Part shown: in pieces, positions 5,993 through 41,298 of the stretch | Layout: every line of letters starts with the position of its first letter | Numbering within the stretch: position 1 is the first letter of the stretch | Assembly (NCBI GenBank): GCA_021776515.1 | Contig: JAJFFS010000016.1 | Coordinates: 248,001-312,000, forward strand | Reading direction: 5' to 3' | From: Robiginitomaculum sp. | GTDB taxonomy: Bacteria > Pseudomonadota > Alphaproteobacteria > Caulobacterales > Maricaulaceae | Length of the DNA stretch: 64,000 nucleotides | Notes under the pieces: generated by a model | Told to the model about the DNA's origin: nothing | What the model saw: the letters and a program-made list of their open reading frames with translations, nothing else | The model's database searches: none | Made by a program: the position numbers and the translations under genes

Positions 5993-6493
5993 GTGGACGC
6001 CACGCTTGAGAATATTGCTATCGCCAGTGATCCTCTGGATCTGGTTGAATACATTCTGACAGCAGAAGAAGTTGGCTTTGAGCGCATTGGTGAACAGGAG
6101 ATCCATTTCTCTGTTCCCGGCCAATGGTGTGATTACCCTTTATGGTTTGCCTGGCGTCCGGAAAATGAAGTGTTGCATCTGTGCCTGGGTATTGATTCCA
6201 AAGTGAAGCCCCGCCGCCGTCTTGATGTGTGCGACCTGCTGGTACGGGTGAATGAACGACTGGCAAGTGGACATTTTGATCTGTGGAGTGAAGATGGCAC
6301 CATTATCTACCGCCATGCCTTGCCTTTACCAGACGCCATATTGCCAACGCCTTCGCAATTGGCGGCCATGACCAATGCGGCCAGCGCCGCCGCAGAACGC
6401 CTCATCCCGGCATTGAATTTTGTGTTGTGGGCTGGCAAGAGCCCGGCAGAGGCTGTGGAAGCGGCTATGTTTGAAACCGCAGGGGAAGCCTGA
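5993..6493 (+). CDS. YbjN-domain protein
   Basis: A 166-residue soluble protein with a YbjN (type III secretion chaperone-like) fold: DPLDLVEYILTAEEVGFERIG, then FSVPGQWCDYPLWFAWRPENEVLHL and RRRLDVCDLLVRVNERLASGHFDLW. The function of alphaproteobacterial members is unknown; some YbjN proteins affect stress responses. The GTG at 5993 is preferred because GAGGAA lies eight bases upstream; an in-frame TTG at 5978 contains that ribosome site. Its TGA overlaps the proC ATG by one base, an arrangement conserved in many alphaproteobacteria. Confidence 0.8.
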   Translation: MDATLENIAIASDPLDLVEYILTAEEVGFERIGEQEIHFSVPGQWCDYPLWFAWRPENEVLHLCLGIDSKVKPRRRLDVCDLLVRVNERLASGHFDLWSEDGTIIYRHALPLPDAILPTPSQLAAMTNAASAAAERLIPALNFVLWAGKSPAEAVEAAMFETAGEA

Positions 6494-7323
6494 TGATCCG
6501 TAAGCCACGCCTGGCACTGATCGGCGCAGGCAATATGGGGCTGGCGCTTGCGTCTGGCTGGGCCGAGCATGGCCTGATTGACCAGCAAGGCTGGCTTGTC
6601 ATTGTTGACCCGGCGCCATCAGAAGCGGCGCAAGACTTTGCCGTACAGAATAAAATCACCATTGTGTCAGAGCTGGATAAAGATCAGGCCAGCCTTCTTG
6701 AAACTGTGGTGTTGGCTGTGAAGCCCCAAATCATGGCTGGTGTGGCCGAAGAGCTTACCCAAATTATACCGCAAACCACACTGATTATTTCTGTGGCTGC
6801 CGGGCTAACCTTAAACAGGCTGCGGAATTATTACGGGGACCGGCCACTTGTGCGCGCCATGCCCAACACACCAGCGGCCATAGGGCGCGGAGCCACTGCA
6901 TTTGTTGCGCCGTCCAGCGTGGATGAAGAGGCTTGCACGCGTGCGAACACGCTGCTTGGTGCCACGGGTATGGTCGAGCGGGTTTTTGAAGAAAGAGCCA
7001 TAGATACGGTAACGGCGGTTTCCGGCTCTGGCCCTGCTTACGTATTTTTATTGGCCGAAGCCATGGCGGCGGCAGGCGTTGCCGAAGGGCTGGACCCGGA
7101 ATTGGCCCGGAAACTGGCGTGCGAAACTGTTGCCGGTGCGGGCGAATTGTTACGTCAACGGGGCTGCGATCCGGCACAATTGCGTGCTGAGGTTACATCA
7201 CCGGGCGGAACTACGGCGGCAGCGATGGATGTACTTATGGGTTCTGGCGGTTTTGCCGAGATGATGCGTCGTGCTGTAAATAGTGCGGCAAGGCGTTCAA
7301 ACCAGTTGGGCGCTCAATCCTGA
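6493..7323 (+). CDS. proC: Pyrroline-5-carboxylate reductase
   Basis: ProC reduces 1-pyrroline-5-carboxylate to proline with NAD(P)H, the last step of proline synthesis. The 276-residue protein has the N-terminal dinucleotide-binding motif LIGAGNMGLALASGW (9-23), the VRAMPNTPAAIGRGATAF region, VSGSGPAYVFLLAEAM and the C-terminal signature VTSPGGTTAAAMDVL. Length and motifs are normal. It is translationally coupled to the YbjN gene. Its 3' end overlaps the convergent histidine kinase gene by ten bases. Confidence 0.96.
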   Translation: MIRKPRLALIGAGNMGLALASGWAEHGLIDQQGWLVIVDPAPSEAAQDFAVQNKITIVSELDKDQASLLETVVLAVKPQIMAGVAEELTQIIPQTTLIISVAAGLTLNRLRNYYGDRPLVRAMPNTPAAIGRGATAFVAPSSVDEEACTRANTLLGATGMVERVFEERAIDTVTAVSGSGPAYVFLLAEAMAAAGVAEGLDPELARKLACETVAGAGELLRQRGCDPAQLRAEVTSPGGTTAAAMDVLMGSGGFAEMMRRAVNSAARRSNQLGAQS

Positions 7324-8687
7324 TGTTCGCCAGGCAGGCTTAGTACAACACGCAATCCCCCCATTTCTGAACGTCCAAGAATAATATCGCCGCCGTGGGC
7401 GCGTGCCGTATCTCTGGAAATGGAAAGCCCTAGTCCGACGCCTTCCTCATTAAGGTTACGCGCCGGGTCAAGACGATTAAAGGGCTGAAATGCATCCTCT
7501 ATAAGGTGGTCTTCAATGCCGGGGCCATCGTCTTCAATCACTATTTTAATATTAGCCATATTTCGGTGTGTTGAAATGCGGACTGCTTCACCGTAATGCA
7601 CCGCATTTTCAATGAGATTGTTAAGACACCTTCCCAGCGCACTTTGACGCCCCGTGATGCCAAGCCCGTCCTCGATCTGCATCTCAATTTGTGCCCCACT
7701 GCGCCGGGCGTTATGTGCACAATCAGTAATAAGGATACCTAGATCAATGAAGGTGCTTTCTTCTTCTGACTCATCGCGGGCAAAGGTTAGGTAACCATCC
7801 AGCATATTTTCCATTTCTTGCAAATCCTGCAGCGCATCCTCTATGCCAGCACTCTTGTCCAGCAGAGTAAGTTGCAACTTCAGCCGTGTTAACGGCGTGC
7901 GCAGATCATGACTGACCCCGGCCAGCATGGCAGTGCGTTGTTCAACAAAGCGCACAATGCGGTTACGCATTTCAAGAAAGGCCGAAGCGGCTTGCCGTAC
8001 CTCGCGGGCCCCAGAAGGTGAAAAACCGGGGTCATCCTGCCCCTTGCCAAACCGTTCAGCAGCATTGGCCAGGCGCTGAATGGGCCGCACCTGATTGCGG
8101 ATAAAAATCACGGCAATTCCGGTTTGTATAAATGTTGCCGCGATAAGCCAGAATACAAAGATATGCCCCGTGGTGGAGAAGACCTTGTCTCGCGGCGCAA
8201 TGAAGCGCAAAATTCCAGCGCTGGTTTGTACCTGAATTTCCACATAAGACGGATAGCGAGTTGTATCGAACCAGAAGGGTGTCTCAAGTCTACCGTTCAG
8301 CGCCGCACGCAAAGTACGGTCCAGAACAGAAAAAATGGATGAGCGTAGATTGTTCGGTAAAACCCCGTCAGGCTGTAACACGACGGACAGGTTCATTTTA
8401 TCCAAAGCCATTTGCGACAATGCATCCAGATTTTCAGGGCTTGGGTTTTGTTCAAACTGCATGGTTATAACGGCCACGTCTCCGGCAACGCTTTCGGAAA
8501 GACGGGTAGTTACGGTTTCCCATTGGGAGTCAAAAAACATCCACAGAACGGCAATCTGCATCAGGGCCACGGGTAAGGCAACAATAAGAAGCGAGCGTCC
8601 AAACAAACCTTTTGGCGTATAATCGCGCAAACGGCGACGTCGGAATAATCGGTGTCTCAATGCCGTATAGTGCTCCTTGATGCTCAT
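7314..8687 (-). CDS. EnvZ-like sensor histidine kinase
   Basis: A 457-residue inner-membrane kinase. Two transmembrane helices (about 29-52 and 175-196) enclose a periplasmic sensor of about 120 residues. A HAMP segment (about 197-250) follows, then the dimerisation domain with phospho-acceptor H260 in the SHDLRTPLTRLK H-box, and an ATPase domain with N-box LNNLIENAVHY (355-365), G1 DDGPG (386-390) and G2 GVGLGLS (416-422). All catalytic boxes are intact. Its start overlaps the end of the response regulator gene by four bases, so it forms a two-component pair with it. The stimulus is unknown; EnvZ-type architecture suggests envelope or osmotic sensing. Confidence 0.93.
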   Translation of the reverse strand: MSIKEHYTALRHRLFRRRRLRDYTPKGLFGRSLLIVALPVALMQIAVLWMFFDSQWETVTTRLSESVAGDVAVITMQFEQNPSPENLDALSQMALDKMNLSVVLQPDGVLPNNLRSSIFSVLDRTLRAALNGRLETPFWFDTTRYPSYVEIQVQTSAGILRFIAPRDKVFSTTGHIFVFWLIAATFIQTGIAVIFIRNQVRPIQRLANAAERFGKGQDDPGFSPSGAREVRQAASAFLEMRNRIVRFVEQRTAMLAGVSHDLRTPLTRLKLQLTLLDKSAGIEDALQDLQEMENMLDGYLTFARDESEEESTFIDLGILITDCAHNARRSGAQIEMQIEDGLGITGRQSALGRCLNNLIENAVHYGEAVRISTHRNMANIKIVIEDDGPGIEDHLIEDAFQPFNRLDPARNLNEEGVGLGLSISRDTARAHGGDIILGRSEMGGLRVVLSLPGEHQD

Positions 8688-37746: not shown

Positions 37747-38520
37747 TCAGGAAAAATCAGGTTTTCGTTTTTGCGTAAACGCGGCATAGCCCTCAGCAAA
37801 ATCCTTGCCGGAAAAGCATTGTGCGAAAATTTCCCGGCTTTGTGCTTCAGCTGCCGGGTCAAATTCGCTTAAGCTGTTAATCATGCGCTTCATGGCCTGT
37901 TGCGTAAAGAGGGAGCGCCCGGCCATTTCTTGCGCGCGCCCAAGGGTATAGGCAATGATCTCATCAGCAGGAACGACTTGTTCAATGAGGCCCATGCGCT
38001 GTGCCTCATCCGCATCCATCAGGCGTGAGGAAAGGAGTATATCTTTTGCCCGCGCCGGACCAATGAGGGTTACGAGGCGGCGGGTATCGCCAAGCGGATA
38101 GATAAGGCCCAGCTTGGCCGGGGTTATACCAAAACGTGCAGTGCTGCCGGCAAAACGCATATCGCAACAAAGCGCCAACGCCATTCCCGCACCAATGCAC
38201 GGGCCTTCAATGCGGGCGATGACGGGTTTGGGGAAACTGGCTAATGTACCCAGTGCTACGGTCATTTCACCATGAAAGCGTACCGCCTCGTCCTCATTGT
38301 CTTTCAGTTTTCCCAGCTCACTTATGTCTGCCCCGGCGCTAAAGACGCCGCTTTGTCCGCCATGGATAACAAGAACCCGGATGCCGGGATCATTCGCGGC
38401 CTTGCCCAGCAGTGCCGGTATGTCTCGCCACATGGCGCGGGTGATGGCATTGCGGGCCGCCGGGCGGTTCAATACCAGTTCGCCAATGGCGCCATTTATT
38501 TCTAGGGTTATGTCAGCCAT
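37747..38520 (-). CDS. Crotonase-superfamily protein lacking both hydratase glutamates
   Basis: A 257-residue enoyl-CoA hydratase/isomerase family protein. The oxyanion-hole segments FSAGADISELG and GPCIGAGMALALCCD are clear, so it should bind acyl-CoA. At the two catalytic glutamate positions of classical hydratases it has alanine (GAGMALALCCD instead of [19 protein letters not shown] instead of FGQPEI). Water addition by the usual mechanism is therefore unlikely, and an isomerase, hydrolase or other crotonase activity is more probable. It overlaps yciI by 13 bases and belongs to the gcdH operon. Confidence 0.85.
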   Translation of the reverse strand: MADITLEINGAIGELVLNRPAARNAITRAMWRDIPALLGKAANDPGIRVLVIHGGQSGVFSAGADISELGKLKDNEDEAVRFHGEMTVALGTLASFPKPVIARIEGPCIGAGMALALCCDMRFAGSTARFGITPAKLGLIYPLGDTRRLVTLIGPARAKDILLSSRLMDADEAQRMGLIEQVVPADEIIAYTLGRAQEMAGRSLFTQQAMKRMINSLSEFDPAAEAQSREIFAQCFSGKDFAEGYAAFTQKRKPDFS

Positions 38521-38807
38521 GCACCCGTAACCGGTTGGAAATGACGAATTGTTACGGAGGCAAAGAGGCCATTTTTGGCGTAAGGGTCATCGTTTAACAG
38601 GGTTTGTACGGCATCTTCATTGTCGGCTTTCATCAGCAGCAGCGAGCCAATTACCGGGCCATCTTCATGATCACGCAAGGGGCCAGCCATCATGAAGGCA
38701 TCCTGGCAGGTTTCAATCCAGCGTAAATGCTCGGGGCGCAGGTGCGCACGTTTTTCTGTACTGTCCGGATGGTCCAGTGCAGTAACGACATAAATTAACT
38801 TACTCAA
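38508..38807 (-). CDS. YciI-family protein with a recently displaced start
   Basis: A 99-residue YciI (ferredoxin-like fold) protein. The RPEHLRWIETC and DDPYAKNGLFASVTIRHF segments carry the conserved His and Asp of the family, whose members are small enzymes or accessory proteins often found with catabolic genes. The start is TTG at 38807, the ATG of the ancestral gene having been altered at the junction with the inserted lipoprotein gene, whose TAA lies inside the first codons here. The first 15 codons are duplicated at 40075-40119. Translation probably depends on coupling to the lipoprotein gene. Confidence 0.82.
   Translation of the reverse strand: MSKLIYVVTALDHPDSTEKRAHLRPEHLRWIETCQDAFMMAGPLRDHEDGPVIGSLLLMKADNEDAVQTLLNDDPYAKNGLFASVTIRHFQPVTGAWLT
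38762..38806. repeat. 45-bp imperfect direct repeat, copy A
   Basis: Matches copy B (40075-40119) at 40 of 45 positions. It covers codons 1-15 of the intact yciI gene. Differences are two single substitutions and a TAA/CGG triplet. It marks the downstream edge of the lipoprotein cassette. Confidence 0.88.
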
Positions 38808-39915
38808 TTTTTTCTAATTTGAGTGCTATATCGCATGGCTTTGTATCGCTATTAGGACCAACAGCATAAGACATATGGCTAGAGTTATTTTCGTCTTGAT
38901 CTAATGATGGCTCTCCGTATTTGGGGGGGGTGCCAAGAGCAAAACAGACCGAATCAAAAGCTACAGACCAGGCATTTGTTTTCGGGTCTTGTTTAATGCC
39001 TCCAAATCTATATGCGCCTATATAGCGGAATGAAAATGTACGTGCATTTCGAAAGCGATGTGGAGTGTATGTTGTCTTAAACTTTTCAACAAATTTTCTA
39101 GTTTCTAATTCGCGATTCAGGTTTGGCATAACTTCAAGGTACGGTGAATAAAAATAATTTATTCCACGGACTAGGCTAGGTTTGTAATATTGAGGGTTTT
39201 GTATTCTCTCAGGAGAGACGTTGCTCCTACTATTATTAAATATAAGGGTGTTGAATTTGAAAGATTGATTATCTTCTTCTAGATCAAGAAGTAAATGCCC
39301 CCCCATATAAATAATAAACTTTCCTGAGTTTAACCGGGTTCCTGCCTCGACTAAATCTGATTTTATTTTTTGAATTAATCCTGCTTTTAAATCTTCTTGC
39401 TCAAACACATTAGCTGCGCGGTAGTCTCTTAATTCATTCATTATGTCAGGACGATACCACTTTCGGTTGTCATTGCCTTGATAGTTAGGCCCCTCATTAT
39501 ATCTTATTTGCCGGGGGACAAAATAAGTCGCATCATACGGGTTATACACCTTTTTTTCTTGTACTATTTTTGCCGCAATTTTACCTGCCTTGACTGAAAT
39601 GATATTTGTATCAAGTTGCCAAAAATTTCCTGCAACAAAATGGAATAATTCACCGTTTATCTGCCAGAAATTTATATTTTTAGAATAAGTGAATCCGGCA
39701 CTATGGTAACCACTACCAACAAAGCTTCTATGTTCCAGCTTTAAAACTTCGAAATTAACAGATTCACCGGTTATGGCGGCCGCTCGTGCTTCGCGTTGTA
39801 AATTTATATTCCTTATTTTTTCCTGATAGGAGGACGCGGCATCAGTTTGGTCACAGCTTGCTGTTATGATTGTAGCTATTGCCATGAATACTAAATTTCT
39901 GACATGTTGTTTCAT
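38800..39915 (-). CDS. AT-rich lipoprotein of unknown function
   Basis: A 371-residue protein I do not recognise. The ATG at 39915 gives a lipoprotein signal, MKQHVRNLVFMAIATIITASC, with lipobox ITASC. The mature part is rich in Asn, Tyr, Arg and Lys and has no visible catalytic motif. It reads as a globular, beta-rich extracytoplasmic protein (QINGELFHFVAGNFWQL, YMGGHLLLDLEEDNQSFKF, TFSFRYIGAYRFGG). Base composition is far more AT-rich than every neighbour. It lies inside the gcdH operon on the same strand, between gcdH and yciI, and is bordered by a 45-bp duplication of the yciI start. Acquisition by transfer is likely. Three cysteines beside the lipid-anchored one are near the C-terminus and elsewhere; no function is inferred. 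Confidence 0.72.
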   Translation of the reverse strand: MKQHVRNLVFMAIATIITASCDQTDAASSYQEKIRNINLQREARAAAITGESVNFEVLKLEHRSFVGSGYHSAGFTYSKNINFWQINGELFHFVAGNFWQLDTNIISVKAGKIAAKIVQEKKVYNPYDATYFVPRQIRYNEGPNYQGNDNRKWYRPDIMNELRDYRAANVFEQEDLKAGLIQKIKSDLVEAGTRLNSGKFIIYMGGHLLLDLEEDNQSFKFNTLIFNNSRSNVSPERIQNPQYYKPSLVRGINYFYSPYLEVMPNLNRELETRKFVEKFKTTYTPHRFRNARTFSFRYIGAYRFGGIKQDPKTNAWSVAFDSVCFALGTPPKYGEPSLDQDENNSSHMSYAVGPNSDTKPCDIALKLEKIE

Positions 39916-40028
39916 AGAGTTTCTCAAAAAATTAAAAAACAGATAGGGGCAATATATTCTGTGCGTCTGGGATGGCAATGGGTCTAAGAGTATCGGTAGA
40001 TCTGGTTTGAAATATAATTTTTGCTCTG

Positions 40029-40046
40029 AATATAAGGCCTTATATT
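40029..40046. promoter_or_regulatory. Perfect 18-bp palindrome upstream of the lipoprotein gene
   Basis: AATATAAGGCCTTATATT is perfectly self-complementary. It lies about 115 bases upstream of the lipoprotein ATG, inside the AT-rich inserted segment. A dimeric regulator site is the simplest reading; no regulator gene is carried by the cassette. Confidence 0.5.
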
Positions 40047-40051
40047 GTCAG

Positions 40052-40120
40052 TCAAAGATAATGAGAACCTTGTATGTCCGGGTGGTTCAGTGCAGTAACG
40101 ACATAAATCGGCTTACTCAT
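40052..40120 (-). pseudogene. 5' fragment of yciI
   Basis: A 22-codon remnant. It starts with ATG at 40120, overlapping the gcdH stop (TGATG), reads [15 protein letters not shown] like the intact YciI protein, then runs into unrelated sequence and stops at 40052. It preserves the ancestral gcdH-yciI translational coupling and contains direct repeat copy B. It is probably still translated as a short peptide. Confidence 0.8.
40075..40119. repeat. 45-bp imperfect direct repeat, copy B
   Basis: The second copy of the yciI 5' end, 40 of 45 bases identical to 38762-38806. With copy A it brackets about 1.27 kb that holds the lipoprotein gene and its upstream region. Confidence 0.88.
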
Positions 40121-41298
40121 CAGGAAAATGCCTGCAATCCCGTCTGTGCCCGCCCCAGAATTAGCGCATGCACATCGTGGGTGCCTTCATAGGTGTTGAC
40201 GGTTTCCAGATTGAGCATGTGGCGGATGACGTGATATTCGTCTGCTATGCCATTACCGCCATGAATATCTCGCGCCACGCGGGCAATATCCAGCGCCTTG
40301 CCACAATTATTGCGCTTCATCAGCGATATGGCTTCGGGGATAAATGCACCTTCGTCGATCAGGCGGCCAAGACGCAAAGCGCCTTGCAAGCCCAGGGTAA
40401 TCTCGGTTTGCATATCGGCGAGTTTTTTCTGTACCAATTGTGTGCCAGCAATGGGTTTGCCAAACACCACCCGGTCCAGCGCATAGTCACGCGCCGCGTG
40501 CCAACAAAACTCCGCTGCGCCCATAGCCCCCCAGGCAATGCCATAACGGGCTTTGTTCAGGCACGAAAACGGTCCGCGTAACCCTTTCACCTCAGGGAAC
40601 AGGTTTTCCTCGGGAACGAAGACGTCCTCCAGCACCACTTCGCCGGTAATAGACGCCCGCAGAGACATTTTACCTTCGATCTTGGGGGTGGAGAAACCGT
40701 CCATGCCGCGCTCGACCACAAAGCCCCGAATAACGCCGTCCAGCTTGGCCCAAACTACCGCCACATCGGCAATAGGGGCATTTGAAATCCACATTTTGGT
40801 GCCGTTCAGCTGATAGCCGCCATCAACCTTTTTGGCCATTGTGCGCATGGCACCGGGGTCCGAACCGCCATCAGGCTCGGTCAGGCCAAAGCAGCCGACC
40901 TTCTCGCCACTGGCCAGACCGGGCAGCCATTTGCGGCGTATGGCCTCGCTGCCAAATTCATAGATGGGGTACATAACAAGGGAGGATTGTACACTCATCA
41001 CCGAACGATACCCCGAATCCACTCGTTCAATCTCCCGGGCAATCAGCCCGTAAATAACGTGCGAGGTTTCCGCGCAACCGTATTCTTCTGGCAGGGTGGA
41101 ACCCAAAAACCCCATTGCGCCCATCTCGGTCATGATCTCGCGGTCAAAGCGTTCCTCACGATTGGCAGTTAAAATGCGCGGCATCAGTTTGTCTTGCGCG
41201 TAAGCCCGTGCTGCATCACGTACCATACGTTCATCTTCGTTTAGTTCCAGATCCAGCAAGAGCGGGTCTTGCCAGTCAAAGGTAAGGGGGTTGTTCAT
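40120..41298 (-). CDS. gcdH: Acyl-CoA dehydrogenase, glutaryl-CoA dehydrogenase type
   Basis: A 392-residue FAD flavoenzyme that decarboxylates glutaryl-CoA to crotonyl-CoA in lysine, tryptophan and glutarate breakdown. The N-terminus [35 protein letters not shown], the FAD segment [17 protein letters not shown] and the C-terminal [21 protein letters not shown], with catalytic base E371, all match GcdH. The first gene of the minus-strand operon with yciI, a crotonase, a GST and a CaiB-type CoA transferase. The 205 bases upstream are non-coding. Confidence 0.9.

Follow-up and report, generated by a model that had tools for sequence, protein, structure and literature searches.

Insertion with long target duplication has been described in Helicobacter (Nobusato et al. 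2000, Gene 259:99; via the excerpted accounts in PMC1643837, PMC4978471, PMC3031569 and PMC2869330). According to the available excerpt of PMC11708052, most IS elements produce target duplications of 1-14 bp. In an E. coli conjugation assay, the homologous locus was found duplicated in 56 of 60 Lac- clones, and the 14 sequenced clones carried duplications of 109-950 bp that the authors read as single crossovers (PMC3240628, abridged text). When a single gene enters an operon without a mobility gene, the event usually goes unseen, its joints having been erased. Here we describe a locus of Robiginitomaculum sp. in which all three traces of such an event survive: a foreign insert, its duplicated target and, in relatives, the site without the insert. 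A narrow search of the open-licence literature found no report of a gcdH-yciI lipoprotein locus.

The interrupted gcdH-yciI junction

The locus lies on the minus strand of a 64-kb stretch of DNA that was analysed as a whole (the window), where the gene order is gcdH, lipoprotein gene, yciI and enoyl-CoA hydratase gene. The gcdH-like acyl-CoA dehydrogenase gene (40120-41298, minus strand) is intact and encodes the Pfam acyl-CoA dehydrogenase domains; its product is 90-95% identical to full-length orthologues in seven genus members and 78-80% identical to those in five others. It is followed by a 22-codon remnant of a yciI start (40052-40120, minus), whose ATG preserves the ancestral overlap with the TGA that ends gcdH, and by a unique inserted stretch of 1268 bp with 37.1% GC (38807-40074, minus). 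The lipoprotein gene (371 codons; 38800-39915, minus) ends in an 8-base overlap with the start of an intact yciI (38508-38807, minus; PF03795 at 9.3e-17), which begins with TTG, and the enoyl-CoA hydratase gene (37747-38520, minus; PF00378 at 5.1e-53) comes next in the operon.

The earlier note on this DNA had claimed that gcdH and yciI were formerly coupled and had expected an uninterrupted junction in relatives. Such a junction, with yciI directly after gcdH, was present in eight of the 17 other genus genomes in the searched collection (G002, G004, G005, G007, G008, G010, G011 and G013; the G005 junction contains ambiguous bases), and in most of them the gcdH stop and the yciI start overlap or abut. 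The TGATG overlap of the remnant also occurs in G007, G010 and G013. Together with the remnant itself, which retains a 22-codon frame and an ATG overlapping the gcdH stop, these junctions uphold the former coupling. Of the 15 relatives that allowed a judgement (the 17 less G001, whose contig ends within gcdH, and G009, which gave no gcdH match at threshold), 8 have the empty site, which makes it the commonest arrangement, and the ancestral junction is therefore one that has since been filled in Robiginitomaculum sp.; no same-species genome lacking the insert was among those compared.

Six further relatives (G006, G012, G014, G015, G016 and G017) carry, directly after gcdH, either a hydratase gene (four genomes) or a CoA-transferase gene (two genomes), the latter frame being named by eye from its likeness to that of the window. 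No yciI was found at E 0.001 in these six genomes, two of which (G006 and G012) are incomplete assemblies, and yciI thus seems dispensable in the operon. In the remaining judged relative, G003, a different gene of 624 codons with a signal-like start separates gcdH from the enoyl-CoA hydratase gene (G003:C28:36000-46500, 6111-7985 minus), and yciI was not found. This gene has no family above cut-off. No direct repeat lies on both sides of it, and a duplication accompanying the G003 junction gene was rejected on that ground.

The composition of the insert departs from that of its surroundings. The lipoprotein ORF has 37.5% GC and 30.9% GC3, against 52.7 ± 3.5% GC and 52.7 ± 5.3% GC3 for the 51 window ORFs of at least 150 codons (the lipoprotein ORF included), the next-lowest of which has 47.4% GC. 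The insert is foreign by composition, and the match to the host that the earlier note had named beforehand as speaking against its reading was absent. The lipoprotein gene is the only gene on the insert; no replication or mobilisation gene was found in its 1.27 kb, no further copy of the insert was detected in the genome at E 0.001, and 0 of the 18 listed inverted pairs have arms at both insert edges. Likewise, none of 10 flanking proteins (33.9-45.9 kb), one of which has no Pfam match of any kind, is a transposase or recombinase (Pfam, E 1e-5), in keeping with the earlier claim that none lies in or near the cassette. No RNA family was found in the region (E up to 1).

The insert is situated deep within a 433,705-base contig of an assembly listed as 99.85% complete. 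The jump in composition over the insert, judged from the assembly alone, is also what would result had the assembler joined foreign DNA to the operon. Against such an error, which we regard as extremely improbable, both edges continue the same operon in order, the repeats described below are imperfect and nowhere agree over more than 21 bases in a row, and contamination is listed as 0.

The 45-nt direct repeat and the probable capture of the insert

The insert is flanked by two copies of a 45-nt direct repeat, the first within the remnant (40075-40119, minus) and the second inside the working yciI start (38762-38806, minus). Intact yciI begins about 1.27 kb beyond the remnant with TTG for ATG, and 40 of 45 bases are common to both starts, all as previously noted. 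The 40 identities are obtained without gaps; a gapped alignment adds TACA beyond a 1-base gap, and with the first base of the start codon included the copies differ at 6 of 46 positions. All five differences within the repeat are transitions, the pattern favoured by point mutation after a duplication event, whereas the start-codon difference that precedes it, A (ATG) versus T (TTG), is a transversion. The lipoprotein gene, too, reaches into the repeat, which contains its last codon and its stop (GAG TAA). Among 122.8 million ungapped 45-mer pairs in the window at spacings of 50-2000 bases, this pair is the only one with at least 33 identities; the repeat is not a product of chance. The 21-base repeat core, searched with up to 3 mismatches, occurs at just these two sites in the 2,569,164-base genome, and a reversed-pattern control gave 0 matches.

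Each repeat copy matches the yciI starts of seven relatives (the eighth, G005, being omitted for its ambiguous bases) at 15-30 of 45 positions without gaps (33-67%), against 89% between the two copies. The copies are thus far closer to each other than to those relatives, and it was therefore the target itself that was duplicated, after those lineages had split off. The dS of gcdH to the Robiginitomaculum sp. genome is 0.97-1.51 for seven relatives, a set that takes in G003 and leaves out G013 and G005. Repeat divergence, estimated from five sites, has a 95% range of 4-24%, which allows no fine dating.

Taken together, we consider it probable that a foreign, AT-rich fragment of about 1.27 kb was captured at the yciI start with duplication of 45 bases of its target; the insertion at a start codon proposed in the earlier note is supported by the empty junctions of relatives and by the foreign composition. 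The ancestor of Robiginitomaculum sp. would have had gcdH and yciI overlapping at TGATG. Two cuts or nicks in the chromosome, some 45 bases from each other, would have been followed by capture of the foreign fragment with its single lipoprotein gene and its joining in at the yciI start. Fill-in of both strands would then have created the duplication, leaving the 45 target bases (second base of the yciI ATG to codon 16) as a copy at each end of the insert. The outcome would be the present arrangement, with gcdH whole, a full yciI rebuilt from a TTG that overlaps the lipoprotein gene's last bases, and the 22-codon remnant left behind. No targeting need be invoked for the exact position at a start codon, because insertions sparing gcdH and yciI would survive selection. 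Ku protein was not found in the genome, which makes classical bacterial end-joining unlikely, and the ends would have been joined by another route; joining by Ku/LigD was discounted on this search for Ku. Also speaking against the proposed reading, flanking duplications are absent both from the other gene at this junction in G003 and from the lipoprotein's relative in Marinicaulis (see below).

The exact extent of the duplication may be smaller than 45 bases. Codon 4 shows a triple difference between the copies (CCG/TTA), and since the start codons also differ (A/T) and the lipoprotein stop lies inside the repeat, the right junction is perhaps located some bases further in. It would then fall in a short sequence common to yciI and the end of the insert, and the true duplication could be about 34 bases. 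Furthermore, the alignment of the lipoprotein with a Marinicaulis protein (see below) reaches within one residue of its end, which, together with the stop codon in the repeat, suggests that the insert may have brought its own stop in the stretch shared with yciI.

The same anatomy would arise without a staggered break if a small circle, carrying the lipoprotein gene and a piece of the yciI start of a related strain, had recombined once with the chromosome in a Campbell-type single crossover, in which case the base differences between the copies would be donor and recipient alleles. The duplications recovered in the E. coli conjugation assay provide a precedent (PMC3240628, abridged text). Such a circle, however, would have to have held part of the gcdH-yciI operon already, the 1.27 kb contain no replication or mobilisation gene, and the lipoprotein is unmatched in searches of 72,556 plasmid and 50,697 phage records. 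Moreover, a homology of 45 bp is short for RecA. We judge this origin unlikely.

Import by homologous recombination would account for the copy differences and the foreign gene together: a relative with the order lipoprotein gene-yciI would have supplied, by transformation, DNA that replaced the host yciI start, one end being homologous and the other illegitimate. GcdH is closest to that of G004 (95%) and YciI to those of G007, G013 and G002 (66-67%; G004 61%), while G002-G007, the one pair of relatives to reach that GcdH similarity (96%), has 82% identical YciI. Equally divergent YciI is nevertheless seen at similar gcdH dS in other pairs (G004-G010, 61%; G011-G007, 70%), and the repeat copies are by far each other's nearest relatives. 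The lipoprotein was found in none of the 17 other genus genomes, one match in G005 at E 0.4 being taken as chance. A search of 137 family genomes (136 besides its own) found no real relative, with two scraps at E 0.07-0.08. We hold import of this kind to be decidedly unlikely.

The lipoprotein gene, its product and a distant relative

The geometry of the locus makes it plausible that the lipoprotein gene is under operon control, and the 159 bases preceding its start (39916-40074) could also accommodate a promoter. Promoter and terminator counts show no excess over shuffles, and the 160-base stretch before the gene folds no better than shuffled sequences. A perfect 18-bp palindrome, AATATAAGGCCTTATATT, lies between the remnant and the lipoprotein gene (40029-40046, no strand). 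It is the longest perfect palindrome of the window, the runner-up having 16 bp, and a scan of the window that tolerated up to 3 mismatches gave no second copy. Lying upstream of the lipoprotein gene, it is a candidate operator.

The 371-residue product begins with a putative signal peptide and a lipobox-like ITASC, both read by eye, in which cysteine 21 is followed by Asp-Gln. From these features it is probably a membrane-anchored lipoprotein, and most likely an accessory periplasmic one. In E. coli, the Lol rule holds that Asp after the lipoprotein cysteine leads to retention in the inner membrane; by analogy, the residues following cysteine 21 suggest that this lipoprotein, too, would be kept there. 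The predicted structure has a mean pLDDT of 30.5 for the lipoprotein alone and 31.1 when modelled with its one relative.

The earlier note had stated that the protein matches no known family. This holds insofar as no family above cut-off was found in Pfam, PHROGs, NCBIfam or PADLOC, and no sequence match in the PDB. It does not hold entirely, in that one distant relative exists, itself below threshold for DUF4852. A score to DUF5995 (E 0.23) was taken as noise. Besides the plasmid and phage searches mentioned above, searches of viral contigs were empty. The relative emerged from 398 genomes of the order, being 26% identical over residues 10-366 (E 6e-19), and no further credible relative was found in 385 class genomes searched with the protein or in 398 phylum genomes searched with a two-row profile, where one partial match at E 0.008 was not credited. 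The two-row profile drew no match from the PDB either. Pattern scans, which detect only sequences holding the conserved stretch, returned nothing from genome contigs with the window protein and the relative's record alone with the two-row alignment. As judged from these searches, the lipoprotein is nearly an orphan.

The relative is encoded in a Marinicaulis MAG (JAJFFY010000010.1; now Hyphococcus, Parvularculaceae, Alphaproteobacteria). By eye, its lipobox reads TVGGC against ITASC in the window protein, with the cysteines aligned, and the following residues are Asp-Asn against Asp-Gln, for which the E. coli rule would again predict retention in the inner membrane. It scores 15.8 bits against DUF4852 (PF16144), for which the cut-off is 22.8, over positions 7-114 of the 116-position profile, so that it resembles this family along nearly all of the profile yet stays below its cut-off, and the window protein has no match to it at all. 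In the open-licence literature searched, no paper on DUF4852 came up. The score of the relative to a ribosomal protein in NCBIfam (E 0.009; 15.7 of 85 bits) was taken as chance. Its gene has 43% GC against 55% for its contig and lies between RNase P RNA and a gene that, from its sequence, we take to be ampD-like, a site unrelated to the gcdH-yciI junction; a search of the 61 further genomes of the MAG's family did not find it. Upstream of the gene, the sequences of Robiginitomaculum sp. and Marinicaulis are no more alike than shuffled ones. The lipoprotein family is thus of sporadic occurrence and probably moves between species. The stretch between the ampD-like gene and RNase P RNA varies between tens of bases and more than 1 kb in the 12 other loci of this genus with both ends seen, and is possibly a spot for accessory genes.

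No repeat flanks the Marinicaulis gene. The expectation that the same lipoprotein would be found elsewhere between start-codon duplications was thus disappointed in the sole relative found, a lipoprotein unit carrying its own duplication habit is unsupported, and the duplication is not a property of the lipoprotein family. This comparison also bears on the reading of the 1.27-kb unit as a site-specific cassette, with att-like repeats, on which a recombinase from elsewhere would act in trans. The direct repeats are of att-like length, the gene start is rebuilt, and the perfect palindrome is close to one end. The insert is single-copy, though, the repeat core is absent from the rest of the genome, the repeat is host coding sequence, and the Marinicaulis relative occupies an unrelated location that lacks a repeat of this kind; we regard a cassette of this kind as very improbable.

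The lipoprotein gene contains two homopolymer tracts that are unusual for its composition, a G7 tract at codon 204 (39298-39304, minus) and a C8 tract at codon 329 (38923-38930, minus). On the coding strand they make up two of the window's five G or C runs of at least 7, and C8 is its longest G or C run and its only run of 8. Both tracts arise in 0.04% of 5000 synonymous-codon shuffles (0.0004), a post hoc figure, as the tracts were seen first. A one-base slip at G7 or C8 truncates the product. In the Marinicaulis gene, runs of G or C all stay below 5. From the sequence of these tracts, we hypothesize that G7 and C8 might mediate on/off switching (phase variation) of the lipoprotein. The number of stops expected in the lipoprotein gene since insertion is 1.5-6.4, and the chance of finding none is, depending on the model, 0.23-0.002; the stop-free frame is only suggestive of selection on the lipoprotein since insertion.

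A broader proposal, which we advance as speculation and consider decidedly improbable, would combine these observations. Single genes for secreted proteins would have landed repeatedly at the gcdH-hydratase junction in the genus; here a capture independent of Ku, with long target duplication, would have filled it, and the lipoprotein thus acquired would be phase-variable through G7 and C8. If true, the operon would be linked to the display of a new envelope protein that can be switched on and off.

Comparison with known kinds of insertion

Several established kinds of gene acquisition resemble this locus in part. Transposon and IS insertions likewise leave a direct repeat of the target on both sides. 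The repeat here is 45 nt, against 1-14 bp for most IS elements, there is no transposase in the insert or its 10 neighbours, and no inverted pair marks the edges; given the usual length of IS duplications and the absence of a transposase among the 10 neighbours, transposition is unlikely. Site-specific integrative elements are recognised by a recombinase gene nearby or by further copies of the attachment site; no recombinase was found among the 10 flanking proteins, and no further copy of the repeat core in the genome. More generally, the preserved joints argue against transposition, against integration at a site that has further copies in the genome and against Ku-dependent joining, and the preservation of the empty site, the duplication and the insert together places the event after several species splits.

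The closest likeness is to insertion with long target duplication. In the excerpted accounts of that process, as here, a gene lies between direct copies of a host target that are longer than transposon duplications, and a relative has the empty site. The two features that define it, an uninterrupted homologous site and flanking repeats that are copies of the target (45 nt, possibly nearer 34), are both present at the gcdH-yciI junction. A link to restriction-modification genes, which is usual rather than defining, is absent, the insert holding one lipoprotein gene with no PADLOC match. Thus, whereas the Helicobacter pylori cases are tied, in those accounts, to restriction-modification genes, the present one concerns a lone lipoprotein gene in an alphaproteobacterium; here, moreover, the copies are already 11% apart and the reading frames have been rebuilt at a start codon. 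As far as the pattern is described in those accounts, the locus would extend it from restriction-modification genes to another kind of gene and another bacterial class, and it shows, in well-preserved form, a way of gaining genes that is known but has seldom been described.
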